This document shows positions 1,221 to 38,003 of a stretch of 38,123 nucleotides of DNA, piece after piece (the first letter of the stretch is position 1; every line of letters starts with the position of its first letter). This DNA comes from Prevotella sp. (GTDB taxonomy: Bacteria > Bacteroidota > Bacteroidia > Bacteroidales > Bacteroidaceae). The notes under the pieces were generated by a model. It was not told the DNA's origin, ran no database searches, and worked only from the letters and a program-made list of their open reading frames with translations. The stretch covers positions 1 to 38,123 of the forward strand of contig JAFUSC010000014.1 in NCBI GenBank assembly GCA_017467705.1, read 5' to 3'. Position numbers and translations under genes: made by a program.

Positions 1221-1461
1221 ACGCACACACGCGCAGGATTCCTTTTTATATAGTGCAGGGGGCCATTTTCCATAGTACAGGGGTCATTTTCCGCAGTGCA
1301 AGATTCCATTTCCTATAGTATTGGATTCCAACGACTTCCATTTGGGATTCCAAAATAGCCTATTTTGCTGACCAAAATAGACTATTTTCCTCACCAAAAT
1401 AGACTATTTTACTTTGCAAAATAGACTATTTTGGAATCTAAAACAAACGGTTCTGGAAACC
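1221..1461. repeat. 22-bp register array A
   Basis: Eleven consecutive units with a 22-bp period (one unit is 21). The core is four units starting at 1352, 1374, 1396 and 1418, each a 15-bp odd palindrome AAAATAG-(A/C)-CTATTTT followed by a 7-bp spacer that differs every time. The flanking units keep the register but not the palindrome; several end in GGATTCC or a close variant. 22 is not a multiple of 3 and no ORF covers the array, so it is not coding. It lies 35 bp past the nadK stop and upstream of the ABC promoter. The remaining bases between 1154 and 1220 show nothing else recognisable. Confidence 0.85.
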
Positions 1462-1496
1462 AATAACTTAGAAACGGGAAGCGCGGCAGCGGGGTA

Positions 1497-2387
1497 TTAG
1501 TCGCGCGAATCGGCACCCCACATCATCTTTTCACGCAGGGTCTGAAAGTGATTCTGCCGCTGGCGCTTCACAATGCGGGCCTTGTAGGGGGCCAGATGCA
1601 GCGTCAGGTGAGTGGCGGCGGAGAGACTTTCACTGCGTCCGTCGACGGCCACGAGGAAGTTGCCCGTACGACTCTCCACCTCAATGCGCAGTTCAGCCGT
1701 CTCGGGGAAGACAAGCGGACGGGTGTTGAGCGAGTGAGGAGCGACGGCGGTCATGGAGAAGACGCCCGTCTGCGGCACGATGATGGGGCCGCCGTTCGAG
1801 AGCGAGTAGGCCGTTGAACCGGTGGGGGTGCTCACCACGAGGCCGTCGGCCTGATAGGTGGTGAGGTATTCGCCGTTGATAGTAGCACGGATGGAGATCA
1901 TCGACGCATTGTCGTGCTTCAGGATGGCCACGTCGTTCAGAGCGCAATTATAGCCCTCCAACGGCTCACCGTCGGTGTCCACCTGTATGAGGGAGCGGCG
2001 GTCAACCTGCACTTTGCCGTCCAGCACGTCGCGGATGCACTGCTCGAACTCATCGGGCCGCACGTCGGCCAGAAAGCCCAGCCGTCCCATGTTCACACCG
2101 ATGATGGGCGTCGCGGCTGCGCCCACGATGCTGGCCGTGCGCAGCAGCGTGCCGTCACCTCCCATCGAGATGGCGTAGTCGTAGGCCTCGCCGTCGTAGC
2201 GGTCGAAGACGTGGGCGAACGTAGGCTGCACGCCTGCCGTGTGTTGCAGGAACTCGAAATAGTCACGGTCAACGTGCACCTGCGCCTCGAATTTCTGCAG
2301 GCACGAGAGCACTTGCTGGATGGAAGCCGACTTCTTGGCTTGGTAGCAATTGCCGAACAGGGCGATAATCAATTTACGTCTGTGCAT
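1497..2387 (-). CDS. nadK: NAD kinase
   Basis: Phosphorylates NAD to NADP using ATP or polyphosphate (cytoplasm). The diagnostic GGDGTLL motif is at about residues 76-82, and the later NAD-binding block [20 protein letters not shown] is intact. I chose the ATG at 2387 ([16 protein letters not shown]) because family members start just before the first beta strand; an upstream in-frame ATG at 2420 would add 11 residues with no family support. This gives 296 aa, normal for the family. It diverges from pdxJ, so the 133 bp between them hold both promoters. The stop is TAA. Downstream lies array A and no clear terminator hairpin. Confidence 0.93.
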
Positions 2388-2428
2388 AAAAAAAGATGCT
2401 AAAATGCGGTTGTTTGCCAAAAATTTCG

Positions 2429-2436
2429 TAATTTTG
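2429..2436 (+). promoter_or_regulatory. -7 box for pdxJ
   Basis: TAATTTTG matches TAnnTTTG and is followed by GCGG, 85 bp before the pdxJ start. A TTTG element lies only 12 bp upstream, so no properly spaced -33 element is visible. Confidence 0.5.
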
Positions 2437-2520
2437 CGGTTGAAAGACTCACCGCTTCGGCGGCAAAGTTACACAATTTCAGCGAAACAACATCAAAACA
2501 AACCCGACAAATCGACGAAA

Positions 2521-3234
2521 ATGACGAAATTAAGCGTAAATATCAACAAAGTGGCCACGCTGCGCAATGCCCGCGGCGGCAACAATCCCGACGTGGAGCG
2601 CGTGGCTCAGGACTGTGAGCTGTTCGGCGCGCAGGGCATCACGGTGCATCCGCGCCCCGACGAGCGGCACATCAAGTATCAGGACGTGCGCGAGCTGAAA
2701 CCGCTCATCACGACCGAGTTTAACATTGAGGGCAACCCCATCGACTCGTTCACCGAGCTGGTGCTGGAGGTGAAGCCCAAGCAGGTGACGCTGGTGCCCG
2801 ACGGTCACGACCAGCTGACGAGCAACCACGGCTGGGACACGGTGGAGAACCGCCCGTTCCTGACCGATATCTGCCGCACGTTCCGCGAGGCAGGCATCCG
2901 CACGAGCATCTTCGTCGACCCCGACCCGCGCATGGTGGAAGGTGCCAAGCTGTGCGGCGCTGACCGCGTGGAGCTCTACACCGAGCCCTACGCATCGGGC
3001 TATCTGGCCGACCGCGCCGCAGCCATCGCCCCGTTCATCGAGGCCGCTGAGGAAGCCCGCCGTCAGGGACTGGGACTGAACGCCGGTCACGATCTGTCGT
3101 TGGTCAATCTGCACTACTTCCATGAGCGCATCCCCTGGCTCGACGAGGTCAGCATCGGCCACGCCATCATCTGCGACGCCCTCTACATGGGCCTGCGTGA
3201 AACGATTAAACAGTATTTAAAAGCGTTAGAATAA
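2521..3234 (+). CDS. pdxJ: Pyridoxine 5'-phosphate synthase
   Basis: Condenses 1-deoxy-D-xylulose 5-phosphate with 3-amino-2-oxopropyl phosphate to pyridoxine 5'-phosphate, the last ring-forming step of DXP-dependent vitamin B6 synthesis. The protein (237 aa) begins [20 protein letters not shown], the family's standard N-terminus with the first TIM-barrel strand, and contains [12 protein letters not shown] with the conserved catalytic and phosphate-binding residues, followed by LVPD and the C-terminal VSIGHAII. The open frame extends upstream to 2350, but that extension overlaps nadK and the promoter, so the ATG at 2521 is preferred. The DJ-1 family gene starts 6 bp after its stop, so the two are probably cotranscribed. 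Confidence 0.95.
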
Positions 3235-3239
3235 AGTAT

Positions 3240-3806
3240 ATGAAAAAAGTATTTATGTTCTTAGCTGAAGGCTTCGAGGATGTCGAGGCCCTGATACCGC
3301 TCGACGTGCTGCGTCGGGGCGGCGTTGACGTGAAGACAGTGAGTGTGGGCGACGGCTATGTCGTCACTTCGGCCCACGGCGTGAACATCGAGGCCGACCT
3401 GATGTTCATGGAAATCAAGCCTGCCGAGGCTGACCTGCTGATGTTGCCCGGCGGCATGCCCGGCGCCAGCAACCTCTACGCACACGAGGAGCTGTGCGAG
3501 GCGCTGCTGAAGCAGAACGAGAAGGGCAAGAAAATCTCCGCCATCTGTGCGGCACCCGCCGTCGTGCTGGGTCAGTTAGGCATCCTGAACGGGAAGAAAG
3601 CCACGTGCTACCCGGGCTTCGAGCACCTGCTGACCGGGGCCACCTACACGGGCGACCTCGTCACCGTCGACGGCAACATCACCACCGCCGAAGGCCCCGC
3701 CGCCGCCTTCCCCTACGCCTACGAACTGCTGGCCCAGCTGGTCAACAAAGAAACAGCCGACCAGATTGCCGAAGGCATGAGGTACAAACATTTGATGGAG
3801 AAATAA
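3240..3806 (+). CDS. DJ-1/PfpI family protein
   Basis: DJ-1/ThiJ/PfpI superfamily protein of 188 aa, the usual length. Family members include glyoxalase III, deglycase-like and chaperone-like proteins. The reactive nucleophile-elbow cysteine is Cys103 in AICAAPAVV, and the assisting acidic residue is Glu16 in AEGFEDVEA, both conserved as in human DJ-1. The flavodoxin-like fold is consistent with LLMLPGGMPG. It sits 6 bp after pdxJ, so it is probably in the same transcript; a role in handling reactive aldehydes or dicarbonyls near B6 synthesis is only a guess. Confidence 0.88.
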   Translation: MKKVFMFLAEGFEDVEALIPLDVLRRGGVDVKTVSVGDGYVVTSAHGVNIEADLMFMEIKPAEADLLMLPGGMPGASNLYAHEELCEALLKQNEKGKKISAICAAPAVVLGQLGILNGKKATCYPGFEHLLTGATYTGDLVTVDGNITTAEGPAAAFPYAYELLAQLVNKETADQIAEGMRYKHLMEK

Positions 3807-3812
3807 TTGATA

Positions 3813-3832
3813 GCATCGGACTCTACGGACTG
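3813..3832. repeat. Left 20-bp inverted copy of the GxxExxY-flanking repeat
   Basis: These 20 bases are the exact reverse complement of 4421-4440 (and of 4384-4403). They begin 6 bp after the DJ-1 gene stop. With the right-hand copies they form perfect inverted repeats around the GxxExxY gene, about 588 bp apart. Confidence 0.85.
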
Positions 3833-3888
3833 AAACGGACTCAATAAAATCGCCAAAGTCTACGTACAGAAGAGAAAAAGGCTCGTGT

Positions 3889-3925
3889 CTGTCCGTAATG
3901 TCCGATGTAAAAAAAGGCAAAAAGG
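3889..3925. repeat. Diverged direct copy of the 37-bp repeat, left side
   Basis: Begins CTGTCCGTAATGTCCGATGT and continues A/G-rich, like the three right-hand units. It ends 3 bp before the GxxExxY start codon, so the gene lies between direct copies as well as between inverted ones. Confidence 0.75.
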
Positions 3926-3928
3926 ACT

Positions 3929-4306
3929 ATGCTGCTATATGAAGAGCTCTCTAACAAAGTGTTACAAGCATATTTCAATGTCTTCAGGCACTTGACGACA
4001 GGTCTACTTGAGAGCGTCTATGAAAATGCTCTATGCATAGAGTTTGACGAAATGAGGATTCCTTATGAACGGCAGAAGCACTTAAATGTCCTCTATAAAG
4101 GAAAAGTAGTTGGCGAGTTTATTCCTGATATTGTCGTTGACAACAAGATTATCTTGGAGCTGAAGTCTATCCCACAGCTGACGCCAGCCAATTCTGCTCA
4201 ACTCATCAATTATCTAACCATCACTCAGTTCAAGGTAGGATACCTGTTAAACTTCGGTGAAGGTCGGGATTACAAACGGATTCTTCTGAGAGAAAGACCT
4301 GAATAA
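3929..4306 (+). CDS. GxxExxY protein (PD-(D/E)XK nuclease-like)
   Basis: A 125-aa protein of the GxxExxY family, named for the motif seen here as GLLESVYENAL. A PDIVV ... ILELKSI pattern matches a PD-(D/E)XK nuclease core (Asp, then ExK), so nuclease activity is likely but the biological role of the family is not established. Base composition is clearly more A/T-rich than pdxJ, recG or ispD around it. The gene is bracketed by the 37-bp repeat family in direct and inverted orientation, suggesting it arrived as a cassette between the DJ-1 gene and ispD. The start ATG follows the left repeat directly. Confidence 0.85.
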   Translation: MLLYEELSNKVLQAYFNVFRHLTTGLLESVYENALCIEFDEMRIPYERQKHLNVLYKGKVVGEFIPDIVVDNKIILELKSIPQLTPANSAQLINYLTITQFKVGYLLNFGEGRDYKRILLRERPE

Positions 4307-4346
4307 CAACAACGGACATGACAGGCGGAAAGAAAAAAGTCCGCGT

Positions 4347-4457
4347 CTGTCCGTAAAGTCCTATGCAAAAAAAAGAACAAAGACAGTCCGTAGAGTCCGA
4401 TGCAAGAAAAAGAACAAAGACAGTCCGTAGAGTCCGATGCAAGAAACAAAGAATATG
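4347..4457. repeat. Three tandem 37-bp repeats before ispD
   Basis: Units start at 4347, 4384 and 4421, exactly 37 bp apart. The last two share the 20-base head CAGTCCGTAGAGTCCGATGC; the first differs at a few positions. Tails are A-rich (AAGAACAAAGA). The third unit runs into the ispD start codon at 4455, so the leader of ispD is made of repeat. The period is not a multiple of 3, so it is not coding. Confidence 0.85.
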
Positions 4458-5192
4458 GATTACGTCATTATCGTAGCAGGCGGTAAGGGTCTGCGCATGG
4501 GAAGTGACATTCCCAAGCAATTCCTGCCCATCGGCGGGAAGCCGGTGCTGATGCGCACGATTGAACGCTTCCGGGAGTACTCCAAGGAGTTGCAGATCAT
4601 CCTCGTGTTGCCCAAGGCGCAGCAGGACTATTGGAAGGAGCTCTGCCAGCAGTACCAGTTTCCCCTCCCTTCAGAGGGGGCAGGAGGAGACTCCTATCGC
4701 CTCGCCGACGGTGGCGAGACGCGCTTCCACAGCGTGCAGCACGGGCTGGCGCTCATCCCCGACGACGCCGAGGGCGTGGTGGGTGTGCACGACGGCGTGC
4801 GCCCCTTCCCCAGCTTGGACGTGATTGCCCGCTGCTACGAGACCGCCCGCACAGCCAAGGCCGCCATCCCCGTCATCCCCGTGGTCGAAAGCCTGAGGCA
4901 TATAGGGCCTATAAGCCCTATGGGGTCCATGGGGCCCACAAGCCCCAGTCCCGTGAGCCACACCGTTCCCCGCTCGGATTAGCGCCTAGTGCAGACTCCG
5001 CAGACGTTTGACATCCAGCTACTCAAGGCTGCCAACCGTCAGCCCTACAACGACGGATTCACCGACGACGCCAGCGTGGTCGAGGCTTACGGCCATGACA
5101 TCACGCTCGTCGAGGGCAACCGCGAGAACATCAAGATCACCACCCCCTTCGACATGACCATTGCCGAAGCACTGCATAGCACCCGACACTAA
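4455..5192 (+). pseudogene. ispD: 2-C-methyl-D-erythritol 4-phosphate cytidylyltransferase, internal TAG
   Basis: Makes CDP-ME from MEP and CTP in the non-mevalonate isoprenoid pathway. The N-terminus [20 protein letters not shown] holds the CTP-binding glycine-rich motif, and VHDGVRPF the substrate-binding block. The frame reaches TAG at 4980-4982 (codon 176) in RSD[13 protein letters not shown], where related proteins usually have Tyr, and then continues open through RLVQTPQTF and DDASVVE to TAA at 5190-5192. So one base change breaks an otherwise complete gene. Two extra segments look like repeat insertions: [10 protein letters not shown] (near 4665-4690) and a GP-rich stretch [15 protein letters not shown] encoded by 9-bp repeats near 4903-4950. 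The start at 4455 is used because it begins the conserved core. recG follows 26 bp later. Confidence 0.85.
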
Positions 5193-5213
5193 GCGCTCAG
5201 CACTCAACGCTCA
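5193..5213. repeat. Short heptamer run between ispD and recG
   Basis: Three 7-bp units (GCGCTCA, GCACTCA, ACGCTCA) fill the gap from the ispD stop to just before recG. They belong to the same heptanucleotide family seen at other gene ends in this window. Confidence 0.6.
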
Positions 5214-5218
5214 ACAAA

Positions 5219-7318: not shown

Positions 7319-7422
7319 CAACAAATGCAAAAAAATGACAAGAAACTACTACTTTTACACCTTGTAAGTGTTAAATAACACACAAATAGTGTTAAGAGTA
7401 TGCGAGTTTAGAAAATAATTTG

Positions 7423-7430
7423 TACCTTTG
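7423..7430 (+). promoter_or_regulatory. -7 box for the M23 peptidase gene
   Basis: TACCTTTG followed by CACCG matches the Bacteroidota TAnnTTTG box, 66 bp before the chosen start. No convincing TTTG element is seen 19-21 bp upstream. Confidence 0.55.
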
Positions 7431-7496
7431 CACCGTTATTTTTTCGCGTGGCATCTCTCAGCCACATCATTGGATTGTAAAAACCAAACCTGTGTT

Positions 7497-8453
7497 ATGA
7501 TAATAAAAGGACTTAAAACATTAGCAATTATGGCCATGGCATCGCTGACTTCTCTCCCGATGATGGGACAGGACCTCTTGGCGAACCAGGCACCCATCGA
7601 CCGTAAGATGAAGGCTGTTGACTCAGTGGCCTTTCATCAGTTAATCATGAATGAACTTTCCGAAAATCCCTCTGCTGACATTTACACCGACTGGGACAAC
7701 CGTTACGTGAGCCGCGTCAACGGCACCATGCCTAACGAGTTCCGCATTGACCTGCGAGGTTTCTGCATGCCAACGCCGAGCCGTGTCATCACGAGCAACT
7801 TCGGCGCCCGCTGGGGACGTCAGCACAAAGGACTGGACATCAAGGTTTACATTGGCGACACCATCGTGGCAGCCTTCAGCGGCAAGGTGCGCATTGTGCG
7901 CTACGAGCCGCGCGGCTACGGTAAGTACGTCGTCATACGTCACGACAACGGTCTGGAGACCGTCTACGGACACATGTCAAAGCAGCTGGTGCACGAGAAT
8001 CAGATTGTCCGCGCCGGCGAGCCCATCGGCCTCGGTGGCAACACGGGCCGCAGCACGGGTTCACACCTGCACTTCGAGACACGCCTCTGCGGTGTAGCCA
8101 TCAACCCCGCGCTGATGTTCGACTTCCGCAATCAGGACGTCGTGTCAGACTTCTACACCTTCCGCCGCGCCAACTACAGCAGCGAGTCAGCTCAGGCAAC
8201 CCGTCTGCGCGGTGCCAGCGCACAGTATGTGGAGAACGAGCGCCCGTCGGCACGTGAGGTGGCCAGCGTCACCAAGACGAACCGCCGCAACAACACCGGC
8301 ACCAGCGAGACACGCTTCCACAAGGTGAAGAAGGGTGAGTCACTCTCGACCATCGCCCGCAAGCGCGGCATCAGCGTCGACAAGCTCTGCAAGCTGAACC
8401 ACATCGGCAAGAGCTTCCGCCTGACCCCGGGACAGATTCTGAAGTATAACTAA
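7497..8453 (+). CDS. M23 family metallopeptidase with C-terminal LysM domain
   Basis: Secreted peptidoglycan endopeptidase or amidase-activator-like protein of 318 aa. The start at 7497 gives a signal peptide (MIIKGLKTLAIMAMASL ... MMGQ); the longer open frame from 7428 begins inside the promoter and is rejected. The peptidase domain shows the zinc-site patterns GRQHKGLDIKV and HLHFETR, with GYGKYVVIRHDNGLETVYGH between them, so it looks catalytically intact. The C-terminal 45 residues (KVKKGESLSTIARKRGISVDKLCKLN) are a LysM peptidoglycan-binding module. Likely role: periplasmic wall remodelling. A strong terminator follows. Confidence 0.92.
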   Translation: MIIKGLKTLAIMAMASLTSLPMMGQDLLANQAPIDRKMKAVDSVAFHQLIMNELSENPSADIYTDWDNRYVSRVNGTMPNEFRIDLRGFCMPTPSRVITSNFGARWGRQHKGLDIKVYIGDTIVAAFSGKVRIVRYEPRGYGKYVVIRHDNGLETVYGHMSKQLVHENQIVRAGEPIGLGGNTGRSTGSHLHFETRLCGVAINPALMFDFRNQDVVSDFYTFRRANYSSESAQATRLRGASAQYVENERPSAREVASVTKTNRRNNTGTSETRFHKVKKGESLSTIARKRGISVDKLCKLNHIGKSFRLTPGQILKYN

Positions 8454-8471
8454 GCACATAGCTATCCAATA

Positions 8472-8638: not shown

Positions 8639-8665
8639 CACCGTGTTAATAATAACAACTGCAAT

Positions 8666-9311: not shown

Positions 9312-9893
9312 ATGAAAAAGATTCTTTTATTATTCATACTTGTTAGCTACACAATGTCCATCCATGCTGATGATATCGTCTTGAAAGACAAAAGCGATTC
9401 TCTTTCTTATGCATTTGGATTGGCATATATTGCTGTCTTTGCTGGGAATACCGTTGAATATGTTGAAACGGAAGCACATACTATATAGGTGCTTTGCGTG
9501 CAGTTTTTATTTTAAATACCATTGAACATAAGAAAAACTCATTTTGTGTTGATGGATTGATTGAAGGAATAAAAGATGACGCAGTTACATGTATGTCCGG
9601 CGGCATTTGAAGTGACAATGACCGAATATGATGTTGCTCCATCGGAACGCAGTCTTCAGGAATACGCAAACGGTCTCATTGATATTCTGTCCTACAACCG
9701 TCCTCCTAAAGACTCATATGAATATGGTCTTAGAGTCGGCTCTTATATTCTTATTTACGATAATAGCCCTAATAAAATAAATCCTCTAATCATGGTACAA
9801 GCACTTGAAGATTTCTTATTACAACGTCCTCTCCTTATTCCAAGGGATCAAGCAGAAAGCATGATGGAAGAAAATCGGGAATTCTTTACATAA
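9312..9893 (+). pseudogene. Decayed FKBP N-terminal-domain-like exported protein
   Basis: Starts with an intact signal peptide (MKKILLLFILVSYTMSIHA) and DSLSYAFGLAYIAVF, then stops at TAG 9486-9488. Another frame continues with IGALRAVFILNT ... FCVDGLIEGIKDDAVTCMSGG and stops near 9610; a third open stretch (9576-9893) carries SLQEYANGLIDIL, YEYGLRVGSYI and AESMMEENREFF. The repeated pattern D-SYA-GL and F-GI/LIEGIKD resembles the domain that precedes FKBP-type peptidyl-prolyl isomerases in Bacteroidota, but no FKBP catalytic domain is present. Read together these are pieces of one coding region broken by frameshifts. Very A/T-rich. A set of short real genes is less likely. Confidence 0.6.
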
Positions 9894-10762: not shown

Positions 10763-11004
10763 TTCGAGGGGCACAACGCACATTTCTGCGGAGCAGAACG
10801 CACGGTTTCGCGGTACCAAAGGCATGGTTTCGCGGTACAATGCAGGTTGTTTCGGGTCGTCCACCTCGGGCTGCGCGGTCGCGCAGCTGGAGGTGGACGA
10901 TCGCGCAGCCCAAGGTGGACGGTCGGGAAAAGGCGCTACTGTACCGCAAAACGGTGCGTGCTGCCCCGCAGCATCGGGTGTTCTGTACCCGGGAAAAAAC
11001 AAGT
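10763..11004. repeat. 22-bp register array D (G/C-rich)
   Basis: Eleven units of exactly 22 bp, starting at 10763, 10785, 10807 and so on to 10983. Unit heads recur as TTCGCGGTAC, TTCGGGTCGT, GCGCGGTCGC, GGACGATCGC, GGACGGTCGG and CTGTACC. A near-perfect 21-bp inverted repeat (10857-10877 with 10902-10922, two mismatches) is made from units in register. It begins 13 bp after the WG terminator and ends 6 bp before the pgeF stop codon. Same period as arrays A, B and C, but G/C-rich sequence. Confidence 0.8.
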
Positions 11005-11010: not shown

Positions 11011-11901
11011 TTACCTCAGCATCACGGCGGAATAGATGCGCCCGGAGTTGATGCCTAACCGACGGGCGGAGAAGAAATCATCACAACGCTGATAGGTGCA
11101 GATGCCGGCCACGTGGATGTTTTCAGCGAGAACGCCGCAAGCGAGCAACTGCTGACGGTTGCACTCCCAGAGGTCGATGTGGGGCTTCGGGGGGAGGGTG
11201 GAAGGTGGAGGGTTGAGGGTGGAAGGTGGAGGGTTGAAGGTGGAGGGTTGAGGGTGGAGGGGGGAAGGTGGAGGGTTAAGGGTGGAGGGAGGAGGCTTAA
11301 GGGGGCGGCGGGCTATTCGTTGCATGTCAAAACCGGCAGCGGAGAAGGCTTCGTAGACCTCTTCGCCTACTTCGAAAGCATCAAGCGAGATGCCCGGACC
11401 AATGACGGCACGCAACGATGCGGGGCACGTGCTGTAAGTGGCTTGCATGGCTTCCACCGCACGGCGGACGATGCGCTGCACGGTGCCACGCCAGCCTGCA
11501 TGAACGGCACAGACGGCACGGCGGTCAGCGTCAAAGAGCAGCACGGGGATGCAGTCAGCCGTGGACACGCCGACGCAGACCTGCGGCACGTCGGTCATGA
11601 CGGCATCAACGCCCTCTAACTGCTGGCGGCGCCCGGCAGCGGACAGCGTCAGGAAGTCGCGCGAGACGGTGCACACCACGGTGCCGTGCACCTGATGGGG
11701 CACGATGAGACGGTCGGGCGTGATGCTCAGCTGTTGGCAAAGCGAAAGGCGATTCTGCCGAATGGCATCGACAGCATCGCCACAATACTCATTGATGTTA
11801 AACTCGCCGTAGAGCCCCGCGCTCACTCCGCCCCGGCGCGTTGAGCTGAACGCCACCACGCCGGGGCCGAAGTCGTAACGCAGCAACTCAGGACTACTCA
11901 T
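11011..11901 (-). CDS. pgeF: Peptidoglycan editing factor PgeF (YfiH/laccase-like)
   Basis: Cytoplasmic amidase-type enzyme that removes wrongly incorporated L-Ser from peptidoglycan precursors in the family's characterised members; formerly called multicopper polyphenol oxidase. Key metal/catalytic blocks are present: [10 protein letters not shown] near the start, [13 protein letters not shown] and [12 protein letters not shown], and the terminal [17 protein letters not shown]. The ATG at 11901 lies inside the 3' end of obgE (8-bp overlap), so the two are translationally coupled. Residues about 200-235 are an extra proline-rich segment with PPPSTLN units, encoded by 15 tandem heptamers (11197-11301), placed before HIDLWECN. 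The segment is in frame, so the protein can still be made. Confidence 0.9.
11197..11301. repeat. Heptamer satellite inside pgeF
   Basis: Fifteen 7-bp units on the plus strand, mostly GGTGGAG, GGTTGAG and GGTGGAA, total 105 bp (35 codons). On the coding strand they give PPPSTLN-like seven-residue periods. Confidence 0.9.
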
Positions 11902-13063
11902 CTTCTTCCTCGTACTCAAAGTCCTCGTAGTCCTCCACTTCCTCCACGTCGTCATCGTCGAGGAACTCAATGTCGTCCTCACCCTCGTCGGCCATCTCAA
12001 CGGCAAACTGCGTCATGTCCTTGTCGCGGTGCACGATGGTCTCAGCCGTGGTGATGGCCGCCAGCTTGTTGCTCTCGCTGTTCAGCTCATGCCAGAGCAC
12101 GTCCTTCAGCTCGTCGAGTCCCTGCTGGGCCACGGCGGAGATGAACACCACGGGGATGTCGGTCGGCACGGTCTCGCGCAGCATATCGATGAGCTCAGCA
12201 TCCAGCAGGTCGCACTTCGTCACGGCCAGCACGCGGTGCTTGTCCAGCAGGTCGGGGTTGAACTGCCGCAGCTCGTTGAGCAGTATCTCGTATTCGCGCT
12301 TGATGTCGTCGGTGTCGCCCGGCACCATGAAGAGCAGCAGCGAGTTGCGTTCAATGTGACGCAGGAACCGCAGGCCCAGGCCGCGGCCCTCGCTGGCCCC
12401 CTCGATGATGCCCGGAATGTCGGCCATGACGAATGACTTGCCGTCGCGGTAGCCCACGATGCCGAGTGAGGGTTCCATGGTGGTGAAGGGGTAGTTGGCT
12501 ATCTTGGGCCGGGCATTGCTGAGTGCCGACACCAGCGTCGACTTGCCCGCATTGGGGAAGCCCACCAGTCCGACGTCGGCCAGCAGCTTCAGCTCCATGA
12601 TGATGGTCATCTCCTGCATGGGCTCGCCGGGCTGCGCATAGCGCGGTGCCTGATTGGTGGCCGAGCGGAACTGATAGTTGCCCAAGCCGCCACGTCCGCC
12701 CTTGAGCAGCACCACCTCCTGTCCGTCGTAGGTGACGTCGCAGACGTACTTGCCCGTCTCGGCGTTGTAGACCACCGTGCCGCAGGGCACGTCGACGTAG
12801 ACGTCCTTGCCGTCGGTGCCGTGGCACTTGTCGCGCCCGCCGTTGCCGCCATGCTCGGCCTTGATGTGGCGCATGTACTTCAGGTGAAGCAGCGTCCAGT
12901 AGTTATGATAGCCGCGCAGGATGATGCTGCCGCCCTTGCCGCCGTCGCCGCCGTCGGGCCCGCCGTTGGGGTTGTACTTCACATGGCGCAGATGCATGGA
13001 ACCGCGCCCACCCTTGCCCGAACGACAATAGATTTTTACGTAGTCAACGAAATTACTTTCCAT
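11894..13063 (-). CDS. obgE: Obg GTPase
   Basis: Essential GTPase of 50S ribosome assembly and stress signalling, 389 aa. The glycine-rich Obg domain (1-158; [21 protein letters not shown]) precedes the G domain with G1 GFPNAGKST, switch TTMEPSLG, G3 [10 protein letters not shown] and TKCD. The C-terminus is an acidic tail ([31 protein letters not shown] in parts), common in Bacteroidota Obg. It lies between adk and pgeF on the minus strand; a 122-bp inverted-repeat element sits in the gap to adk. The stop TAG overlaps the pgeF start. Confidence 0.96.
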
Positions 13064-13079
13064 TTCATTTTCTAATTAG

Positions 13080-13201
13080 TAATTAGGAATTAGTAATTAG
13101 AAATTATGATTAGTTCTAAAGACAGAACCACCGCCGATACCGTGCCCCTCACACAAGGGCTTGCAAGGTAATCATAATTTCTAATTACTCATTCCTAATT
13201 A
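13080..13201. repeat. 122-bp inverted-repeat (MITE-like) element between adk and obgE
   Basis: Arms 13080-13112 and 13169-13201 are 33 bp with one mismatch; both are built from TAATTAGGAAT/TAATTAGAAATTATGATTA. The 56-bp centre (13113-13168) holds two small hairpins, GTTCT/AGAAC and GCCC/GGGC. The arms are very A/T-rich against G/C-rich neighbours. No ORF or target-site duplication is clear. Confidence 0.8.
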
Positions 13202-16070: not shown

Positions 16071-16112
16071 GAAGGTTGAAAGTTGAAAATTGAAAATTGA
16101 AAATTGAAGATT
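16071..16112. repeat. Heptamer satellite after nnr
   Basis: Six 7-bp units starting 6 bp after the stop: GAAGGTT, GAAAGTT, GAAAATT (three times), GAAGATT. Confidence 0.8.
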
Positions 16113-17245: not shown

Positions 17246-17253
17246 ATGATTTT

Positions 17254-17302
17254 AGATTTGAGGTTTGAGAGTTGAGATTTGAAATTTGATAATTGAGGTT
17301 TA
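17254..17302. repeat. Heptamer satellite between the DUF4831 genes
   Basis: Seven 7-bp units (AGATTTG, AGGTTTG, AGAGTTG, AGATTTG, AAATTTG, ATAATTG, AGGTTTA), starting 8 bp after a stop codon. Confidence 0.8.
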
Positions 17303-17334
17303 AGAAAGAGAATAACTAAAAAAATAGATAAACA

Positions 17335-19599: not shown

Positions 19600-19732
19600 C
19601 AATTTAAAATTAAGAATGAAGAATCAAGCATCAAGAAATTAGCATCGCTTCACCCTCTTTTTTAAATTATTTCACACTGCGCGCGGACTTTTCGGCCCGT
19701 TTGCAACATGCACTTTACAAACAAAAACGCTT

Positions 19733-19802
19733 AACCTTCAACCTTTAACCTTCAACCTTTAACCCTTAACCTTCAACCCTTAACCTTCAACCCTCAACCT
19801 TT
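19733..19802. repeat. Heptamer satellite ending at the DUF6377 stop codon
   Basis: Ten 7-bp units in perfect phase: AACCTTC, AACCTTT, AACCCTT, AACCCTC variants. The last unit overlaps the stop codon of the minus-strand DUF6377 gene by two bases. On the sense strand the unit reads GAAGGTT, the same as after nnr. Confidence 0.9.
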
Positions 19803-21453
19803 ACCGCGGCATACCAATCTCCTTCACCTGCCGCTCGAAGCTCTCGCGGTTGCCCGCAGCGCCGTTCTTGATGCGTGCACGGTAATTGTAGATGGTGTTC
19901 ACCGAGTAGTGCAGGAACTCCGCAATCTTCGACGAGTCGTCAATACCCAGCCTGATCAGCGCGAAGATGCGCAGGTCGGTGGTCAGCCGGTGCTCCTCCT
20001 TCGGATGCACCTGAACCTCAGGTAGCAGCAAGGCGTTGAAATCGTCGATGAAGTTGGGGAACAGGTGCAGGAACACGGAGTCGAAGTTCTGGCTGAGTTC
20101 CTCTATCTCCTTCTCCTTCAGTTCGGTCGACTTCGACTGCTGGAACAGGTCATCCAGCTCCTTGTTCTTCATCTTGCGGTTCACCATCTTGCGATAGTTG
20201 TCCAGCTTGTCGATGTACTGCGAACAGAGTGAGAGGAACCGCCCAATGTACTCCTCCTTCACACGGTTGGCCTCTGAGAGTTGTGCGTTGAGCGTGGACA
20301 ACTGTTCGTTGAGTGTTGACAGCTGTGTGTTGCTGCCCTGCAACTGGTCGTTGGCCTCACGCAGCTCGTTACGTGCCACGTCCAGCTGCTTGTTGCGCCG
20401 ATGCAGGAAGAACAGGACGCCCAGCAGCAGCAGGGCCAGCACACTGAGAATGGCCAGCAGCACGCGCAATTGCGCCGTCGTGTGGTCGCTCTTCTCCTTG
20501 TACGTCTTGGCTATCTCGGTCATCAGCGGCGCAATCTGCCAGTTACGCTGACGCGAACCGTAGCGTATGGCGCAGTCGCTGGTGTAGCTGATGTAGCGGT
20601 TGGCATGTTCCACATCGCCTCTCAGCATCAGCTGGTTGGCCAGTTCCCACATGGAGCCCTGGTCCAGCACGCCATTGCGGATGTCGGCCAGCACGGACTC
20701 GGCGAGCCAGTACATCATCTGCTCCTCGTCGCCACGCGCATTGTATTCCAGATAACGGTAGAGCGCCACCATGGCGTATGGATGCGAACCCGGCTCGCTC
20801 ATCTTCAGCCACTCGTCGTTGATGGCCATCGACTGCTCCAGCTTACCAGCGTTCAGGAAGGTCATCTCGCGGCGCAGCATGATGCGCGGGTCGTCGGCTG
20901 GCAGCGTCTCGTACATCATGTTCTGGTATTGGTCTGCCTTGGCCGCATACGTCTGCTTCAGCTCCGGCATCTGCGTGTAGTAGGCCATCTCGTTATATAC
21001 ATTATTGTACGCGTGCGCGTATTCGCCCAGTGCGGCCTGGTCAATGCCCACGGTGACAATGGAGTCGAGAATGTTCAGCGCTTCCTCGTACATGCCCGTG
21101 CTCGAACAGCGCCACGCCAGCGATGCCTTGCAGCGAATCTCATTGGAACGGTTATCAGTCTGACGGGCCAGATGGATGCACTGCTTCAGGAAATAGATGG
21201 CCGAATCGTTCACGAACGGACGATACAGGTCGTAAAGCGCGTAGGCCGCCACAAAGCCTGCAGAGTCCGTGCGGACCAAGTCAAGCTTCTTGCGGGCCTC
21301 TGCAATGCGGGCCTCATGCTGTGCCACGTAACGCGGCGACTCTTCAATGGCTTCGTCAATGGTGCGAAGCAACTCAGGCAGCGGTTTGGTCTGGGCATGC
21401 AGGCCAACCACAGCCGTCATGCAGCAGACAACCAGTAACAGTAACTTTCTCAT
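19801..21453 (-). CDS. DUF6377 family membrane regulator-like protein
   Basis: 550 aa. Signal peptide (MRKLLLLVVCCMTAVVGLHAQ), a helical TPR-like periplasmic region (about 25-320; AEARKKLDLVRTDSAGFVAAY, EALNILDSIVTV), one membrane segment (about 328-348, LLAILSVLALLLLGVLFFL), a coiled coil (about 350-400), then a cytoplasmic domain ending in a LuxR-like helix-turn-helix (DDSSKIAEFLHYSVNTIYNYRARIKN). This layout fits a one-component sensor that binds DNA from the membrane; the ligand is unknown. Part of the coiled coil (SNTQLSTLNEQLSTLNAQLSEA in pieces) is encoded by 21-bp periods resembling the heptamer satellite. Its start overlaps the SIMPL stop by one base (TGATG). Confidence 0.85.
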   Translation of the reverse strand: MRKLLLLVVCCMTAVVGLHAQTKPLPELLRTIDEAIEESPRYVAQHEARIAEARKKLDLVRTDSAGFVAAYALYDLYRPFVNDSAIYFLKQCIHLARQTDNRSNEIRCKASLAWRCSSTGMYEEALNILDSIVTVGIDQAALGEYAHAYNNVYNEMAYYTQMPELKQTYAAKADQYQNMMYETLPADDPRIMLRREMTFLNAGKLEQSMAINDEWLKMSEPGSHPYAMVALYRYLEYNARGDEEQMMYWLAESVLADIRNGVLDQGSMWELANQLMLRGDVEHANRYISYTSDCAIRYGSRQRNWQIAPLMTEIAKTYKEKSDHTTAQLRVLLAILSVLALLLLGVLFFLHRRNKQLDVARNELREANDQLQGSNTQLSTLNEQLSTLNAQLSEANRVKEEYIGRFLSLCSQYIDKLDNYRKMVNRKMKNKELDDLFQQSKSTELKEKEIEELSQNFDSVFLHLFPNFIDDFNALLLPEVQVHPKEEHRLTTDLRIFALIRLGIDDSSKIAEFLHYSVNTIYNYRARIKNGAAGNRESFERQVKEIGMPR

Positions 21454-22553: not shown

Positions 22554-22817
22554 CTAAGAATATTTCCATCAATTGAAAAGCAGCGACTCGTTAACTGGAA
22601 AACAGAAGTTCATTAACAGGAAAGTGTCAGTTCTTTAACTGGGAAACGGCCGTTTTAAGAAGCAATAAACCGTTTATTGAAAAGTAATAAACGGTTTTTT
22701 ACTCGGTAATAAACGGTTTATTGGTCGGTAATAAACGGTTTATTACTTGGTAATAAATGGTTTATTACTTTTCAAGTTGGGCGGTTTCCGAACGATAAAC
22801 GGCTGGTTTCCATGCCG
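22554..22817. repeat. 22-bp register array B
   Basis: Twelve units of exactly 22 bp. Five core units (22664-22773) are the 15-bp odd palindrome AATAAAC-(C/G)-GTTTATT plus a variable 7-bp spacer; one copy is mutated. Before them are three related units ending TTAACTG or TTAACAG and one with the palindrome AAACGGCCGTTT; after them two units share GGTTTCC. Lies between the GH3 terminator and the small hypothetical gene's promoter; not coding. Confidence 0.9.
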
Positions 22818-28939: not shown

Positions 28940-28953
28940 AGGATTAATGGTTA

Positions 28954-32576: not shown

Positions 32577-32617
32577 ATCTTTTCGTTTTTATTTGCTTGT
32601 TATCTTATGACAAACCA

Positions 32618-34165
32618 TTAATAACCGGGATTTTGAGTAAGATTCGGGTCTGCAGCCAGTTCTGTGTAAGGTATCGGCAGATACTTCTTGTCAGCAGTCC
32701 AAGCCTTGTTACGCCATAATCCGTCAATCTCATTGGAAGCAACCAATACTGATGCAGCCTTGCCAGAACGGACGAGGTCCCAATAACGCTTACCTTCACC
32801 GACGAACTCAAGATGGCGCTCATTCAGCACATCGTCAACCGTAACGTTCGACAAAGCCTCAACACCGGCACGTGTACGGACACGATTCACATAGTCTGTT
32901 GCCGTGGAAGCTGCGCCGCCAGTCTTCAACAGAAGTTCAGCAGCATTCAGCAACGTCTCTGCATAACGATAGATACGCAGATTGTTGTTATAGTTCAGCT
33001 GCTTGTCGCCTGATGCACGGGCCACGTTCTTGGAATAAGCATAATACTTACCAATCCAGAAGCCTGTATTCTCATAACGCGGAGTGAACTCGCTGTTACC
33101 CTCTGTGTAAGCTCTTACATCGAGAATAGAACCTTCACGGCGTGTGTCGCCCTCAGCAAACATGTTCCAAGTGGCAGCACGGACAGGTGCAAAGCCCCAA
33201 CCGTCGTCAGTGCCCAACTCACCGATAGCATAAGGACAGCCACAGAGACGGGGGAACACCGTACCACCAGCGATGATAGCATCACCAGAACCCCAACCAC
33301 GAACACTCATGTTGTCAGTGTAGTTCACCTCAAAGATAGACTCTGAAGACCACTCACCCGTTGACTCCCAGATAGAGGCATAGTCAGCAACAAGGTCGTA
33401 CTCGCTGTCGGAAATAATCTCATTCATATATCCAAGAGCTTTCTGATAGCGTGACTCATCGTTCTGGTACATCACCATCTCAGCATACAGCATGTAGCCT
33501 GTGTAGAGATTCACACGTCCCAAATTATCATCGTCCCACTTGGTAGGCAGGGCTTTCAGCGCCAACACTTCTTCCAAATCGGCAATCACGTTCTCATAAA
33601 CCTGATCTGCCTGGAGCTGCTCTGCAAAGAAAGGAGCTGACAAATTCTCAAAATAGAAAGGAATATTGCCATAGAACTTCCAAAGCATATTGTAATAATA
33701 TGCACGAAGCACACGAGCTTCAGAAGTCCACTCATTATACTCTGCATCTGTCAACACGTCACGACTTTCATTTGCGTACTTTATCAAGTCATTTGAACGC
33801 TTCACACCAGAATACATGTTACTCCAGATACCAGCCATGCAGTTGGTCGGAATGGCAGAATAGTTTGCCATCAGATGCCAATACTGGTTGTCGGTAGCCG
33901 ACTGACCACCAGGGTAGATGTCGTCACCCATGATGTCACTCATAACGTTCTGCGGATTATATTGGCTGCCATTCCAGTCGTTCCACTCCATCGGGCTATA
34001 TGCAGCGACAAGCGACTGCGAAATATGCTCTTCCGTGGTGTAGTAGGTTTCCACAAAGTCCTGAGTGTGAGATTCCACTTCAAGGAAGGAATCCTTACAT
34101 CCTGTCATAACCGTCAGGCCAGACAGAAGACCTATCGCTAATATATTAAAATTTTTCATATACAT
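32618..34165 (-). CDS. susD: SusD-like starch/glycan-binding lipoprotein
   Basis: 515 aa. Lipobox VMTGC (Cys23) with KDSFLE; then the SusD-type TPR scaffold: THTTEEHI-like region YYTTEEHISQSLVAAY, NDLIKYANE, EARVLRAYYYNMLWKFYGNIPFY, and the RagB/SusD C-terminal block RIYRYAETLLNAAELLLKTGG ... YVNRVRTRAGV ... ERHLEFVGEGKRYWDLVRSG, ending in KYLPIPYTEL. Works as the lid of the SusC channel to capture oligosaccharides. Start at 34165, with Met3 (34159) equally possible. Gap to susC is 42 bp. Confidence 0.95.
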   Translation of the reverse strand: MYMKNFNILAIGLLSGLTVMTGCKDSFLEVESHTQDFVETYYTTEEHISQSLVAAYSPMEWNDWNGSQYNPQNVMSDIMGDDIYPGGQSATDNQYWHLMANYSAIPTNCMAGIWSNMYSGVKRSNDLIKYANESRDVLTDAEYNEWTSEARVLRAYYYNMLWKFYGNIPFYFENLSAPFFAEQLQADQVYENVIADLEEVLALKALPTKWDDDNLGRVNLYTGYMLYAEMVMYQNDESRYQKALGYMNEIISDSEYDLVADYASIWESTGEWSSESIFEVNYTDNMSVRGWGSGDAIIAGGTVFPRLCGCPYAIGELGTDDGWGFAPVRAATWNMFAEGDTRREGSILDVRAYTEGNSEFTPRYENTGFWIGKYYAYSKNVARASGDKQLNYNNNLRIYRYAETLLNAAELLLKTGGAASTATDYVNRVRTRAGVEALSNVTVDDVLNERHLEFVGEGKRYWDLVRSGKAASVLVASNEIDGLWRNKAWTADKKYLPIPYTELAADPNLTQNPGY

Positions 34166-34207
34166 GTTCTTATTAAATTTCTTTCGATTTCAAACAACCA
34201 TAATCGA

Positions 34208-37200
34208 TTAGAAGCCGACATTGACACCAACGGTCCATGTACGAGGCTGGGGATAAACACCATAGTCAACGCCAAGTGATGTTCCGCCAGAAGAGATTTC
34301 CGGATCAAGTCCAGCGTACTTCGTAAAGGTCAGCAGGTTTTCTGCAGAGACAAATACGCGGAGTTTCTCAACAAAGAACTTCTTGGTGATGTTAAGAGGC
34401 AGCGTGTAGCCCAACTGTATGTTCTTCAGGCGCAGATAGCTGCCGTCAGTGAGATACAGGTCGCTTGAGCGCCAGTTGCGACCGTCATTGCTGGTGTCGC
34501 CGATGCGGAAGGCAGGATACTTGTCGGAAGTGCCTTCACCGGTCCAACGACCCAACATCCAAGAGGGAAGGTTGATGGCATCAATGTCTGTACGGCGAGT
34601 GGCATCGAAGATGTCATTGCCGATGGTGCCCTGAAGCATCATTGAGAAATCAAATCCACGCCAGGCAGCGGTCAGGTTCAAGCCGAAAGTCCAGTCGGGC
34701 ATACCCTTACCGATACGTGTCTGGTCGTCGTCATCAATGACACCATTTCCGTCGACATCAACGAAACGGACATCACCGGGACGTGCGTTCGGCTGAAGCA
34801 GTGCACCCTCACTATTCGTGTAGTCATTTACCTCGGCCCAGTTCTGGAAGATGCCATTTGTCTTGAAACCATAGAAGTAGGGGAACGGCTCACCGTTCTT
34901 AGCACGTGTGATGGTTCCTATGCCCTGGAAGGAGTCATAATCCTGATAGCCGGTGTCATTACCATAGTTGATCAGTTCATTCTTCAAATAGGAGAGGTTA
35001 CCACTGACACGGAACTGAGCGTCGGCAATATGCCACTTGTAAGAAGCCTCAAACTCAATACCGGAGTTCTTCATCTCACCGACATTACCCCAAGGCTTCG
35101 ACTCACCGACATAGGTAGGAATAGGCTGCTGCAACAACATGCCATTAGTTTTCTTGACATAATAGTCAACACTGAATGTCAGTGCATTGTTGAAGAAACC
35201 GAAGTCAAGACCCAGGTCAGTCTGCTCGCTCTCTTCCCACTTCAGGTTAGCATTGGGAAGACCCGATGCTTTGGAACCGATAGCCTGATGCTCGTCACGT
35301 CCCAACAGGAAGTTATTGTTACCGCCAGTTGCAGCAGTAACGGTATAGAGGAAGTTACCAATGTTCTCGTTACCGTTCTTACCCCAACTGAAGCGGACCT
35401 TGAAATTGCTCAGCCAGTCGCGGGTCTTAACCATGAACGCTTCGTTCATCACGTTCCAACCTAATGAGAAAGACGGGAACGTAGCATAGTGGTTGTTGGA
35501 ACCGAAGTGGCTCGAACCATCACGACGGATGGTGAACTCAGCCATATAGCGCTCTGCGTAGTTATAGCTGGCACGACCGAACAGCGAAGACAGGGTGCTG
35601 AAATCATAAGGAGCACCACTTACATACTGCTTACCGTCGGCACGCTCACCGGTAGATGCATCAATGTAAGGACGTGCCAGACTGATAATGTCGTCACGGG
35701 AACCCCACAAGTATGCACCATAGGACTTCTTGGCTGACTGACCGAGCACGATGTTAAATGTATGCTCATCAATGGTCTTGTCAAACGACAGGGTGTTCTC
35801 AATCTGCCATACAGTGTTATCACCTTTCTGGCTGTGAGCATTGGTCTTGTCAGACGAATAGCCCTTACGTATATAATAAATAGGTGTATAGCCGTCGCTG
35901 CCCCAGAAGCTCTTGTCAGCGCCGTAGCTGAAACGATACTTCAGACCGTTGTAGAGCTGAAGATCAATCATGAAGTTGGCAACGAACTTATGGCTCCAAC
36001 CCAGATCGCCCGGCAGTGAGAGCATGGCCAGCGGGTTACCCATTTCGTTATAGTCAGCACCAGGCAGTGTATATACCTCTTTATAACCATCGGCATCAAC
36101 ATTGCCGGTATACATCGGCACATACTCACTGTAGTCAATCAGGTTCTTTGCAACATGGGCATCAGCCTCAGCGCCGGAGATGGTCGGAGTGAGAATCGGT
36201 GACAAGGTAAGTGCCGAACCCAAAGCCGTACCCCAAGTTGAATTGGTGTCAATAGAGCGGGAGTGGATGCGTGCATACGACAGGTTAACCGTCACATCGA
36301 GCTTGTTCAGCCATTCGCGCGTCTTGGTTTCGTCGAAGATATTGTACTTCGTGTTGCTGCGCATGGTCAGACGGTCGTAGTTAGAACGGTTATAGTTACC
36401 ACCGATGATACCCTCCTGAGAATAATAGCCCAGCGAGAGGTAGTAGTTCACTTTGTCAGAAGCACCACTGATACTTACTTCATGATTCTGGACCGGGGCA
36501 TTGTCGTTGAACACCAGATCCTGCCAGTCGGTGCCTACACCATACTGATAAGGATTGTCATACTTGATGGCACGGTTTGAGTTAACCAGACCTTCGTTCA
36601 TCATCACGGCATACTCCGTTGCGTTGAGCACGTCACGGTGTTTCCACGCTGACTGCCAACCCATTGAGAAGTTGTAGTTGACGCGGGTCTTGCCCACCTT
36701 GCCCTGCTTGGTTGTCACAAGAACCACACCATTAGCAGCACGGGCACCGTAAATGGCACCTGAAGCAGCATCCTTCAACACCTCCAGACTCTCGATGTCA
36801 GTCGGATTCAAATAGTCAAGACCGCCTTCAATGGGCATACCGTCGACAATGTAAAGAGGATCAGTATTATTAATTGTACCGATACCACGAATACGAATCT
36901 GTGCAGCAGCACCGGGCTGACCTGACGAAGAGGTCACGGTAACACCAGAGGCCAATCCCTTCAGGGCGTTATCCATACGGAGCGGTGCCGTTGTGGCCAG
37001 ATCCTCATTATTCACTTTGGCAATAGAGGCCGTCACGACACTCTTCTTCTGAACACCGTAACCCACGACAACGACTTCCTCAAGGGCCTTGTTGTCAGGA
37101 ACGAGCACGATGCGGAGATTGTCAGCGGCTTTTACCTCCTGCGTCGTGTAACCGATGTAAGAGATAACGAGCGTAGCACCCGGCTCCACGTTAACCGTGA

Positions 37201-37381
37201 ACTCACCGTCCAAATTGGTAGCAACACCATTGGTGGTGCCTTTCTGAACTACAGAAGCGCCAATGACCGGCTCATTGGTCTCGTCGAGAACGACGCCCGA
37301 GAAGGCTCGCTTCTGCGCAAGAGCTGTTGCAGACATCAGCACGAATGTCAGCAACAATAATAAAGACTTGCTTCTTTTCAT
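34208..37381 (-). CDS. susC: SusC/RagA-family TonB-dependent transporter
   Basis: 1057 aa, normal length. Signal peptide MKRSKSLLLLLTFVLMSATALAQ; a carboxypeptidase-regulatory-like domain (FSGVVLDETNEPVIGASVVQ); the plug with EEVVVVGYGVQKKSVVTASI, LASGVTVTSSSGQPGAAAQI and IRGIGTINNTDPLYIVDGMP; then a beta barrel ending YPQPRTWTVGVNVGF with the terminal Phe. Imports glycan oligomers energised by TonB-ExbBD. First gene of the PUL operon with its own promoter and a bipartite operator-like region. Confidence 0.96.
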   Translation of the reverse strand: MKRSKSLLLLLTFVLMSATALAQKRAFSGVVLDETNEPVIGASVVQKGTTNGVATNLDGEFTVNVEPGATLVISYIGYTTQEVKAADNLRIVLVPDNKALEEVVVVGYGVQKKSVVTASIAKVNNEDLATTAPLRMDNALKGLASGVTVTSSSGQPGAAAQIRIRGIGTINNTDPLYIVDGMPIEGGLDYLNPTDIESLEVLKDAASGAIYGARAANGVVLVTTKQGKVGKTRVNYNFSMGWQSAWKHRDVLNATEYAVMMNEGLVNSNRAIKYDNPYQYGVGTDWQDLVFNDNAPVQNHEVSISGASDKVNYYLSLGYYSQEGIIGGNYNRSNYDRLTMRSNTKYNIFDETKTREWLNKLDVTVNLSYARIHSRSIDTNSTWGTALGSALTLSPILTPTISGAEADAHVAKNLIDYSEYVPMYTGNVDADGYKEVYTLPGADYNEMGNPLAMLSLPGDLGWSHKFVANFMIDLQLYNGLKYRFSYGADKSFWGSDGYTPIYYIRKGYSSDKTNAHSQKGDNTVWQIENTLSFDKTIDEHTFNIVLGQSAKKSYGAYLWGSRDDIISLARPYIDASTGERADGKQYVSGAPYDFSTLSSLFGRASYNYAERYMAEFTIRRDGSSHFGSNNHYATFPSFSLGWNVMNEAFMVKTRDWLSNFKVRFSWGKNGNENIGNFLYTVTAATGGNNNFLLGRDEHQAIGSKASGLPNANLKWEESEQTDLGLDFGFFNNALTFSVDYYVKKTNGMLLQQPIPTYVGESKPWGNVGEMKNSGIEFEASYKWHIADAQFRVSGNLSYLKNELINYGNDTGYQDYDSFQGIGTITRAKNGEPFPYFYGFKTNGIFQNWAEVNDYTNSEGALLQPNARPGDVRFVDVDGNGVIDDDDQTRIGKGMPDWTFGLNLTAAWRGFDFSMMLQGTIGNDIFDATRRTDIDAINLPSWMLGRWTGEGTSDKYPAFRIGDTSNDGRNWRSSDLYLTDGSYLRLKNIQLGYTLPLNITKKFFVEKLRVFVSAENLLTFTKYAGLDPEISSGGTSLGVDYGVYPQPRTWTVGVNVGF

Positions 37382-37446
37382 TACGTTAATTTTTTGGTTT
37401 ATAAATTTAAGTTAGTTGCAATCTTCCGAGTAATGGAATTTGAGCA

Positions 37447-37476
37447 CAAAATTATATAAAAATTAAAATAGTCAAA
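37447..37476 (-). promoter_or_regulatory. Promoter of susC
   Basis: On the minus strand TTTG (37473-37476), 18-bp spacer, TAATTTTG (37447-37454). Confidence 0.6.
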
Positions 37477-37485
37477 CAGCACTTG

Positions 37486-37592
37486 GTCGAAAAAGTGGAC
37501 GTTTTTGATGGTATAAAAACAGCAAAGCACTCATTAACAAACACTTACAATTTTTCAAAGCACAAAAAAGAGTGGACTAAATATAGAGGTGT
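37486..37592 (-). promoter_or_regulatory. Bipartite operator-like region of susC
   Basis: Plus-strand AGTGGAC at 37494-37500 and 37571-37577, 77 bp apart; the distal site continues N6-TAGAGGTGT (37584-37592). The proximal site is 40 bp upstream of the -7 box, matching the LruC-GH3 promoter. Confidence 0.6.
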
Positions 37593-37673
37593 AAAAGCAA
37601 CAATTAACGTCTTCTCAGACTGTTTTTGATTGTTTTACTAACACTATTTCAAGCGATTTAGCCCTGCGTAAAC

Positions 37674-38003
37674 GCCTTTCCTGAATCGGCGAAGAGCCTC
37701 CTTTCAATCGACGAAAAGCCTCTTTTCAATCGACGAAGAGGCAGTCTTGATTTGACGAAAAACCCCTTTCCGATTGACAAAAGGCTTTAATTCATTTGTA
37801 ATATAAGCTATTTTGAATTGTAATATAGTCTATTTTACAAAGTAATATAGTCTATTTTACGTTGTAATATAATCTATTTTACATTGTAATATAGACTATA
37901 TTACAAATCAATTCAAGCCCCTTGTCAATCAGGAAAGGGCACTTTGGCAGTTATATAAAGGAAGTTTGGCAGTTATATAAGGGCACTTTGAACACAAAGA
38001 CAC
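37674..38003. repeat. 22-bp register array C
   Basis: Fifteen consecutive 22-bp units. First block: units with GACGAAAAGCC-type cores (AATCGACGAA). Middle block (about 37800-37909): five units of AATATAG-N-CTATTTT palindromes with variable spacers; the last contains the perfect GTAATATAGACTATATTAC. Last block: units with GGCAGTTATATAA and GGGCACTTTG. Register is kept throughout although the sequence changes. Region 37593-37673 holds nothing else recognisable. Confidence 0.9.

Follow-up and report, generated by a model that had tools for sequence, protein, structure and literature searches.

The window analysed here is a 38,123-bp stretch of contig JAFUSC010000014.1 from a Prevotella sp. genome assembly (GCA_017467705.1; 2.53 Mb, 170 contigs, 77% complete). 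It carries four tandem arrays of short units, A, D, B and C, which a first-pass annotation had described as intergenic and locked to a 22-bp register (Table 1). Arrays A, D and B do lie between genes, but array C could be placed only between a gene and the contig end, its far neighbour being beyond the contig. Array D is flanked by a WG-repeat gene on one side and a convergent laccase-domain gene on the other, and the short open reading frames (ORFs) overlapping it were taken as spurious. In every array, self-match was highest at lag 22 among lags 1-60 (A 0.616, D 0.518, B 0.599, C 0.633), and for each intergenic region, not one of 300 dinucleotide shuffles equalled the observed self-match at any of the lags 12-44, which confirms both the register and the expected excess over shuffled controls. 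The single 21-bp unit noted in array A was found by inspection at 1265-1285. The unit counts given earlier (11, 11, 12 and 15 for A, D, B and C) are approximate only, as the array ends fade. Unit sequences mostly differ between the loci, as had been claimed, but units of array A were found again on three further contigs at 81-89% identity, and the cores of arrays A and C are related (79% identity over 70 bp, on opposite strands).

Table 1. Coordinates of the 22-bp arrays and of other tandem repeats in the window
Feature	Position	Structure	Units and context
Array A	1221..1461	22-bp period, one 21-bp unit	GGATTCC in left units, GGAAT in right units
Array A core	1352..1432	four 15-bp palindromes AAAATAGNCTATTTT, starts 1352, 1374, 1396, 1418	7-bp linkers GCTGACC, CCTCACC, ACTTTGC
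Array D	10763..11004	G/C-rich, 22-bp period	between convergent genes
Array D centre	about 10851-10938	long imperfect palindrome	
Array B	22554..22817	22-bp period	TTAACTGGAAA in left units; core units AATAAACGGTTTATT
Array B core	22664..22766	five 15-bp palindromes, starts 22664, 22686, 22708, 22730, 22752	
Array C	37674..38003	22-bp period	upstream of SusC-like TonB receptor gene (34208-37381, minus); contig end at 38123
Array C core	37800..37902	five units like (GT)AATATAGTCTATTTTA(C), starts 37800, 37822, 37844, 37866, 37888	related to array A core
Heptamer array	11189-11303	15 copies of GGGTGGA	inside laccase-domain ORF 11011-12006
Further 7-bp arrays	13073-13114, 16076-16112, 17248-17305, 19608-19637, 19733-19803		units differ
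37-bp tandem repeat	4349-4453	2.8 copies, 91% matches	

Similar arrays are spread through the genus, and the four in the window are members of this class rather than oddities. The sample of the window's genome comprised 383,652 bases, namely the window with its four arrays and 29 stretches picked at regular contig intervals. In this sample, a simple detector reported 33 arrays at lag 22 and none at 20 or 23, whereas block-shuffled sequence yielded no array at all, whatever the lag. Under a stricter rule, by which an array was counted at its primary period and only if no reading frame stayed open across it plus 100 bases on either side, 27 arrays remained at 22, and other lags had at most two. 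The simple detector, a looser scan, also gave 25 matches at lag 21, none of which was left under the stricter filters, and those listed look like coding repeats. Two further samples were not chosen for arrays. The first consisted of 80 named loci (1,455,430 bases) fetched as relatives by one window protein and therefore all around the same gene; they are labelled Prevotella, Prevotellaceae, Bacteroidales or Bacteroidaceae, and many of their titles mention ruminant gut sites. It held 25 non-coding arrays at period 22 and 20 at period 21, with at most three at each other period from 10 to 45, after 16 open-frame arrays (one at 21, three at 22) had been discarded; the shuffled loci gave two arrays in total. 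The second consisted of 12 arbitrary 20-kb stretches from 12 other genomes of the genus, taken from already known contigs or from single long contigs, and yielded 13 non-coding arrays at 22 and two at 21, with at least one such array in 8 of the 12 stretches. The phased arrays that were to be sought in relatives are thus present. Array density was about 70 per Mb in the sample of the window's genome, 62 per Mb in the 12 stretches and 31 per Mb in the 80 loci.

A pooled set, partly chosen for arrays (matches to array A, genomes known for 21-bp arrays and surroundings of known arrays), contained 157 non-redundant non-coding arrays, 90 of them at 22 bp, 25 at 21 bp and at most five at any other period. 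BLAST grouped the 115 arrays of 21 or 22 bp into 54 families at E<1e-4 and 47 at E 1e-2, and their G+C content ranged from 0.18 to 0.71. The contrast drawn earlier between A/T-rich arrays A, B and C and G/C-rich array D is seen, but as part of a wide range (18-71%), and the proposal that length is conserved while sequence is free holds well beyond the window, since only 21 and 22 bp stand out. In the window's genome, 44 arrays (including places matched by array A) fell into five groups of at least two members and four singletons; one two-member group is just two adjacent arrays sharing flanks. In 539,802 bases from 12 genomes of other Bacteroidales families, the stricter rule gave no array at 22, three at 21, of which at least one is by eye a proline-codon-like repeat, and one at 20; one of these genomes (G026) had a single 22-bp array that passed the looser scan only. 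We are close to certain that the array class and its 21/22-bp lock are real in the sampled material. One locus (L302) has a 20-bp unit within its core, i.e., outside this lock. The idea that the period is a trait of the genome was not supported, because 19 of the 80 loci carried 22-bp arrays, 19 carried 21-bp arrays and four carried both, near the product of the rates. In 100 kb of another genome (G022), there were only 21-bp arrays (four non-coding) and none at 22.

The earlier description was incomplete in that it lacked the dyad symmetry of the units, the dispersed families, the linkers shared between different cores and the 21-bp version of the arrays. Compared with permutations of their own unit columns, 53 of 66 arrays showed significant dyad symmetry, 17 of these 53 coming from the 22 arrays outside the window's genome, as did 26 of 44 arrays in a second set (one array with masked bases omitted), although arrays of the same family are not independent in these counts. 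The dyad was centred on a base in 49 of the 53. In the significant-dyad arrays, Watson-Crick matches lay between 0.53 and 0.66 over distances 1-6 from the dyad, fell to 0.49 at distance 7 and were about 0.4 at distances 8-9, and this fall-off indicates a core of about 15 bp and a linker of 7 bp. In six related, hand-picked arrays of the window's genome, four with AAAATAGACTATTTT cores and two with AATTTCGACGAAATT-type cores (identity between the two core groups 0.64), identity within an array was 0.92 for cores and 0.57 for linkers, so that cores agree far more than linkers. Compensatory changes inside arrays gave no difference, with pair-restoring double deviations in 132 of 328 cases across the core dyad and in 123 of 300 across the linker dyad.

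Within one superfamily of arrays, the same linkers surround different cores in different genomes. The exact pairs of two cores from the window's genome each occurred in 2 of 299 genomes of the genus, the window's genome included. When the core was left free, the linker pair ACTCGGT-N15-ACTTTGY was found at 37 sites in 10 of 200 genomes, compared with 13 sites for the reversed control. Thirty of the 37 sites were in four genomes (G000 2, G051 3, G156 14, G181 11), and the remaining seven showed no excess over the control. The cores at these 30 sites are AT-rich near-palindromes that differ between genomes; within genomes, the 14 in G156 are identical, and those in G181, G051 and G000 vary slightly. 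We fetched loci selected by this pair, 10 in G156, 9 in G181 and one in G051. By inspection, they carry a central block, mostly of 4-6 units, at unrelated places, and arms that differ but mostly hold the 22-bp register; one block is common to all 10 loci in G156, and a related block occurs at the 9 in G181. Many arm units in these two genomes resemble, by inspection, GAAAG-N5-CTTTC with a variable centre, which is the form of a dimer site. Irregularities were a 20-bp unit at one locus and, at three, an additional copy of the core that does not keep the register. The second linker-pair copies at L290, L291 and L297, all in G156, lie 63, 36 and 96 bp from the first, and these loci look as if blocks had fused. 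When copies were compared by inspection, linker order was largely kept and blocks of about 4-6 units recurred together, which lends no support to the copying unit by unit that the first-pass annotation had suggested.

Related species can differ by a whole array, and arrays can also persist. Four gaps were compared between G178 and G165, two genomes that share several collinear blocks with 76-90% nucleotide identity. In one gap, G178 had an array upstream of the same gene, but G165 had none; in a second, both had arrays of unrelated sequence, and G178 had an extra short gene; in a third, both had arrays whose units looked partly alike; the fourth gap could not be aligned. The nearly identical arrays at L196, from the laboratory isolate Prevotella sp. 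tf2-5, and at L204 (by inspection) indicate that arrays can persist too. Homology between dispersed copies is mostly confined to the array. The three families that were aligned (I, IIa and III) had no common ends by inspection, their homology fading outward, and the linker-pair loci were similar. About 30 bases of left flank are common to L050 and L069. Arrays at L053:4303-4451 and L057:9558-9734 match at 86% over 404 bp on opposite strands, with homology extending well beyond the array, and this pair is perhaps part of a larger mobile element.

The arrays lie predominantly outside genes. Of the 49 arrays with a 21- or 22-bp period in the 80 named loci, 45 had no reading frame open across the array plus 100 bases. 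ORFs of at least 80 aa from a naive call cover at least half of 14 of the 44 arrays in the window's genome; these ORFs were taken as spurious. The position of arrays was analysed in a set of 104 from which loci fetched by an array A match, open-frame arrays and ORFs mostly on arrays had already been removed, and the midpoint fell inside a called gene in only six, a number that is low partly by construction. With gene calls that are ORF-based and rough, arrays are enriched in divergent gaps (28 of 246) and convergent gaps (18 of 168) relative to tandem gaps (37 of 783; chi-square p=0.0002). The gap upstream of the ABC-ATPase gene (216-1031) was compared with the 29 other loci that matched best; three of them had a 22-bp array in this gap, each with its own core, and a fourth had a 22-bp array elsewhere. 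At L178, L193, L220, L221 and L234, 21-bp arrays near 9590-9840, upstream of the same gene, have ACATAAG-like linkers in common by inspection, and their cores vary (GTTTCC...GGAAAC or GTACC...GGTAC).

The reading that we tentatively prefer is that the arrays are helically phased sites in double-stranded DNA for one or more dimeric proteins, dispersed as blocks. It fits most of the facts, followed by hairpin-driven mutation and by movement of the kind seen in miniature inverted-repeat transposable elements (MITEs). Since 22 bp is about two turns of B-DNA, the natural reading of 21 or 22 bp is two helical turns, and tandem dyad-symmetric sites of about 15 bp with 7-bp linkers would place successive sites on the same side of the double helix. 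Such an arrangement would most likely serve cooperative binding by one or more dimeric DNA-binding proteins for which spacing and symmetry matter more than any given sequence. Between transcription units, a bound array might act as a nucleoprotein or topological block. Groups of several units would arrive at new places or vanish whole, in the manner of MITEs or of bacterial interspersed mosaic elements (BIMEs), and cores would change together within an array.

Several points weigh against this reading. Dyad sites an integral number of turns apart, as this reading expects, occur in most arrays but not in all, and the turns themselves are deduced from length alone. No significant dyad was found in 13 of 66 and 18 of 44 arrays, yet these keep the period, so that the period is more general than the palindrome; array D is one case, its unit-level dyad test being non-significant (p=0.48) despite its long palindromic centre. 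Linkers compared by position in the six hand-picked arrays are only moderately conserved, with identities of 0.75 and 0.57 inside the two core groups and 0.68 from one group to the other, and just 4 of 200 genomes clearly carry the exact linker pair in arrays. Array sequence varies within one genome, and one sequence-specific protein would not bind the many cores. The excess of arrays in divergent and convergent gaps may reflect no more than a better tolerance of inserts there. Finally, no array-binding protein was found. A broader version is doubtful. In it, the arrays would be genus-wide chromosomal elements defined by length and symmetry alone, some factor in Prevotella would recognise or build dyad arrays of 21/22 bp with almost any sequence, and the palindromic cores specific to each genome would be exchanged together while the linker scaffold is kept, as though they followed a DNA-binding specificity that changes quickly.

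A mutational origin without function is rather unlikely. Palindromic hairpins would cause template switching and slippage at the replication fork, which would make, homogenise and multiply units in intergenic DNA that tolerates them. The palindromic units, the similar cores within an array, the free sequence and the differences between related species are all consistent with this, as is the strong hairpin potential, since both strands form rods when the centres of all four window arrays are folded (z from -6.05 to -10.45). However, this origin does not account for why just 21 and 22 bp stand out or for the arrays that retain the period without a dyad, and whole-unit slippage should equalise linkers, whereas within arrays these agree far less than cores do.

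Selfish MITEs moved in trans by a transposase, with the minisatellite as cargo, are unlikely to be the explanation. The model for such elements is BrickBuilt of Porphyromonas gingivalis, which according to excerpts of PMC4596501 is an intergenic MITE with a 23-nt tandem minisatellite of imperfect copies, dispersed in 19 copies in one strain. The same source describes it as one sequence family that occurs in P. gingivalis and P. gulae and has a leader, a tail and IS5-like terminal repeats, and states that tandem repeats of 41, 23 and 22 nt had been noted earlier in P. gingivalis W83 (PMC4596501). As described there, BrickBuilt resembles the arrays in its intergenic, imperfect tandem unit, its predicted long stem-loops and its order, Bacteroidales, but it is a single family (PMC4596501), whereas the arrays form 54 BLAST families of 21 or 22 bp. 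Its 23-nt unit does not fit the arrays, whose periods are 21 and 22 bp, lag 23 occurring once among the 157 pooled arrays. Movement of this kind would agree with the dispersed copies, with homology mostly limited to the array, with the central blocks at the G156 and G181 loci, all picked by one linker pair, and with the site found with and without an array in G178 and G165. Against it, inspection of families I, IIa and III revealed no common ends, though neither terminal repeats nor target duplications were formally searched for, and movement alone does not set a period across unrelated sequences.

It is quite improbable that the arrays act as structured RNA, in which transcribed arrays would fold as rods of 11-bp half-units and affect mRNA stability or termination. 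The rods with strong z-scores on both strands suit this explanation, and 22 bp is two A-form turns, an A-form helix having about 11 bp per turn, but folding on both strands is expected of any palindrome. Core mismatches in 94 arrays had no strand bias (G-T 258, A-C 236; heterogeneity p=0.99), and this lack of a G-U excess over A-C on either strand argues against selection on RNA pairing. Long-range pairing between the left and right arms was rejected at the 19 G156 and G181 loci (p=0.38, 0.28 and 0.60 for arms 1-3) and again with a tighter core definition at 15 loci (p=0.17, 0.20 and 0.11), from which three loci with a second core copy and one with a slipped unit had been dropped; the exact matches at L289 and L304 are therefore not evidence. 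The window had no match in Rfam, arrays occur in gaps of every orientation, and at L118, where two genes diverge, the array seems by inspection to be upstream of each gene's promoter, judged by the promoter motif. The absence of a G-U excess and of arm covariation, together with the occurrence of 21 bp, a poor fit to A-form turns, beside 22 bp, favours double-stranded DNA.

Repetitive extragenic palindromic (REP) elements and BIMEs are sequence-defined families, many of them tied to RAYT (PMC3733652). Like the arrays, they are extragenic, palindromic, high in copy number and sometimes arrayed, with a possible role in DNA topology. That the arrays are REP/BIME made by a RAYT transposase is very improbable, for although they too are extragenic imperfect palindromes in many copies and some Y1_Tnp match was found in 23 of 30 genomes, they are not sequence-defined, the array-bearing genomes G003 and G017 had no Y1_Tnp match and hence lack RAYT, the window's genome had only a sub-cutoff match, and we know of no 21/22-bp lock in REP. 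BrickBuilt is nearest in kind, yet neither it nor REP/BIME fits. Plasmid replication iterons are tandem sites about two helical turns apart that place proteins on one face, but there are few such arrays per replicon and one protein, in contrast to the roughly 31 to 70 arrays per Mb and many sequences here. CRISPR arrays also contain short palindromic repeats, but the present arrays have no unique spacers, and their degenerate units directly adjoin. Viral contigs had no match to two core patterns. Nothing describing such Prevotella arrays was found in titles and abstracts of the open-access literature, a scope outside which most subscription journals fall.

The window also holds other tandem repeats (Table 1). 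The heptamer array in the laccase-domain ORF is in frame, encoding repeats like PPPSTLN, and is apparently an in-frame insertion. The further 7-bp arrays, with their different units, are perhaps a second class with a fixed period and free sequence.

Bacterial repeat families are usually defined by sequence; in these arrays, length and symmetry persist and sequence does not. Similarity searches will therefore miss most members. If the arrays are helically phased binding sites, a change of spacing by half a turn would abolish their effect, and a new sequence with the same spacing and symmetry would keep it. The arrays also bear on the origin of minisatellites such as BrickBuilt.

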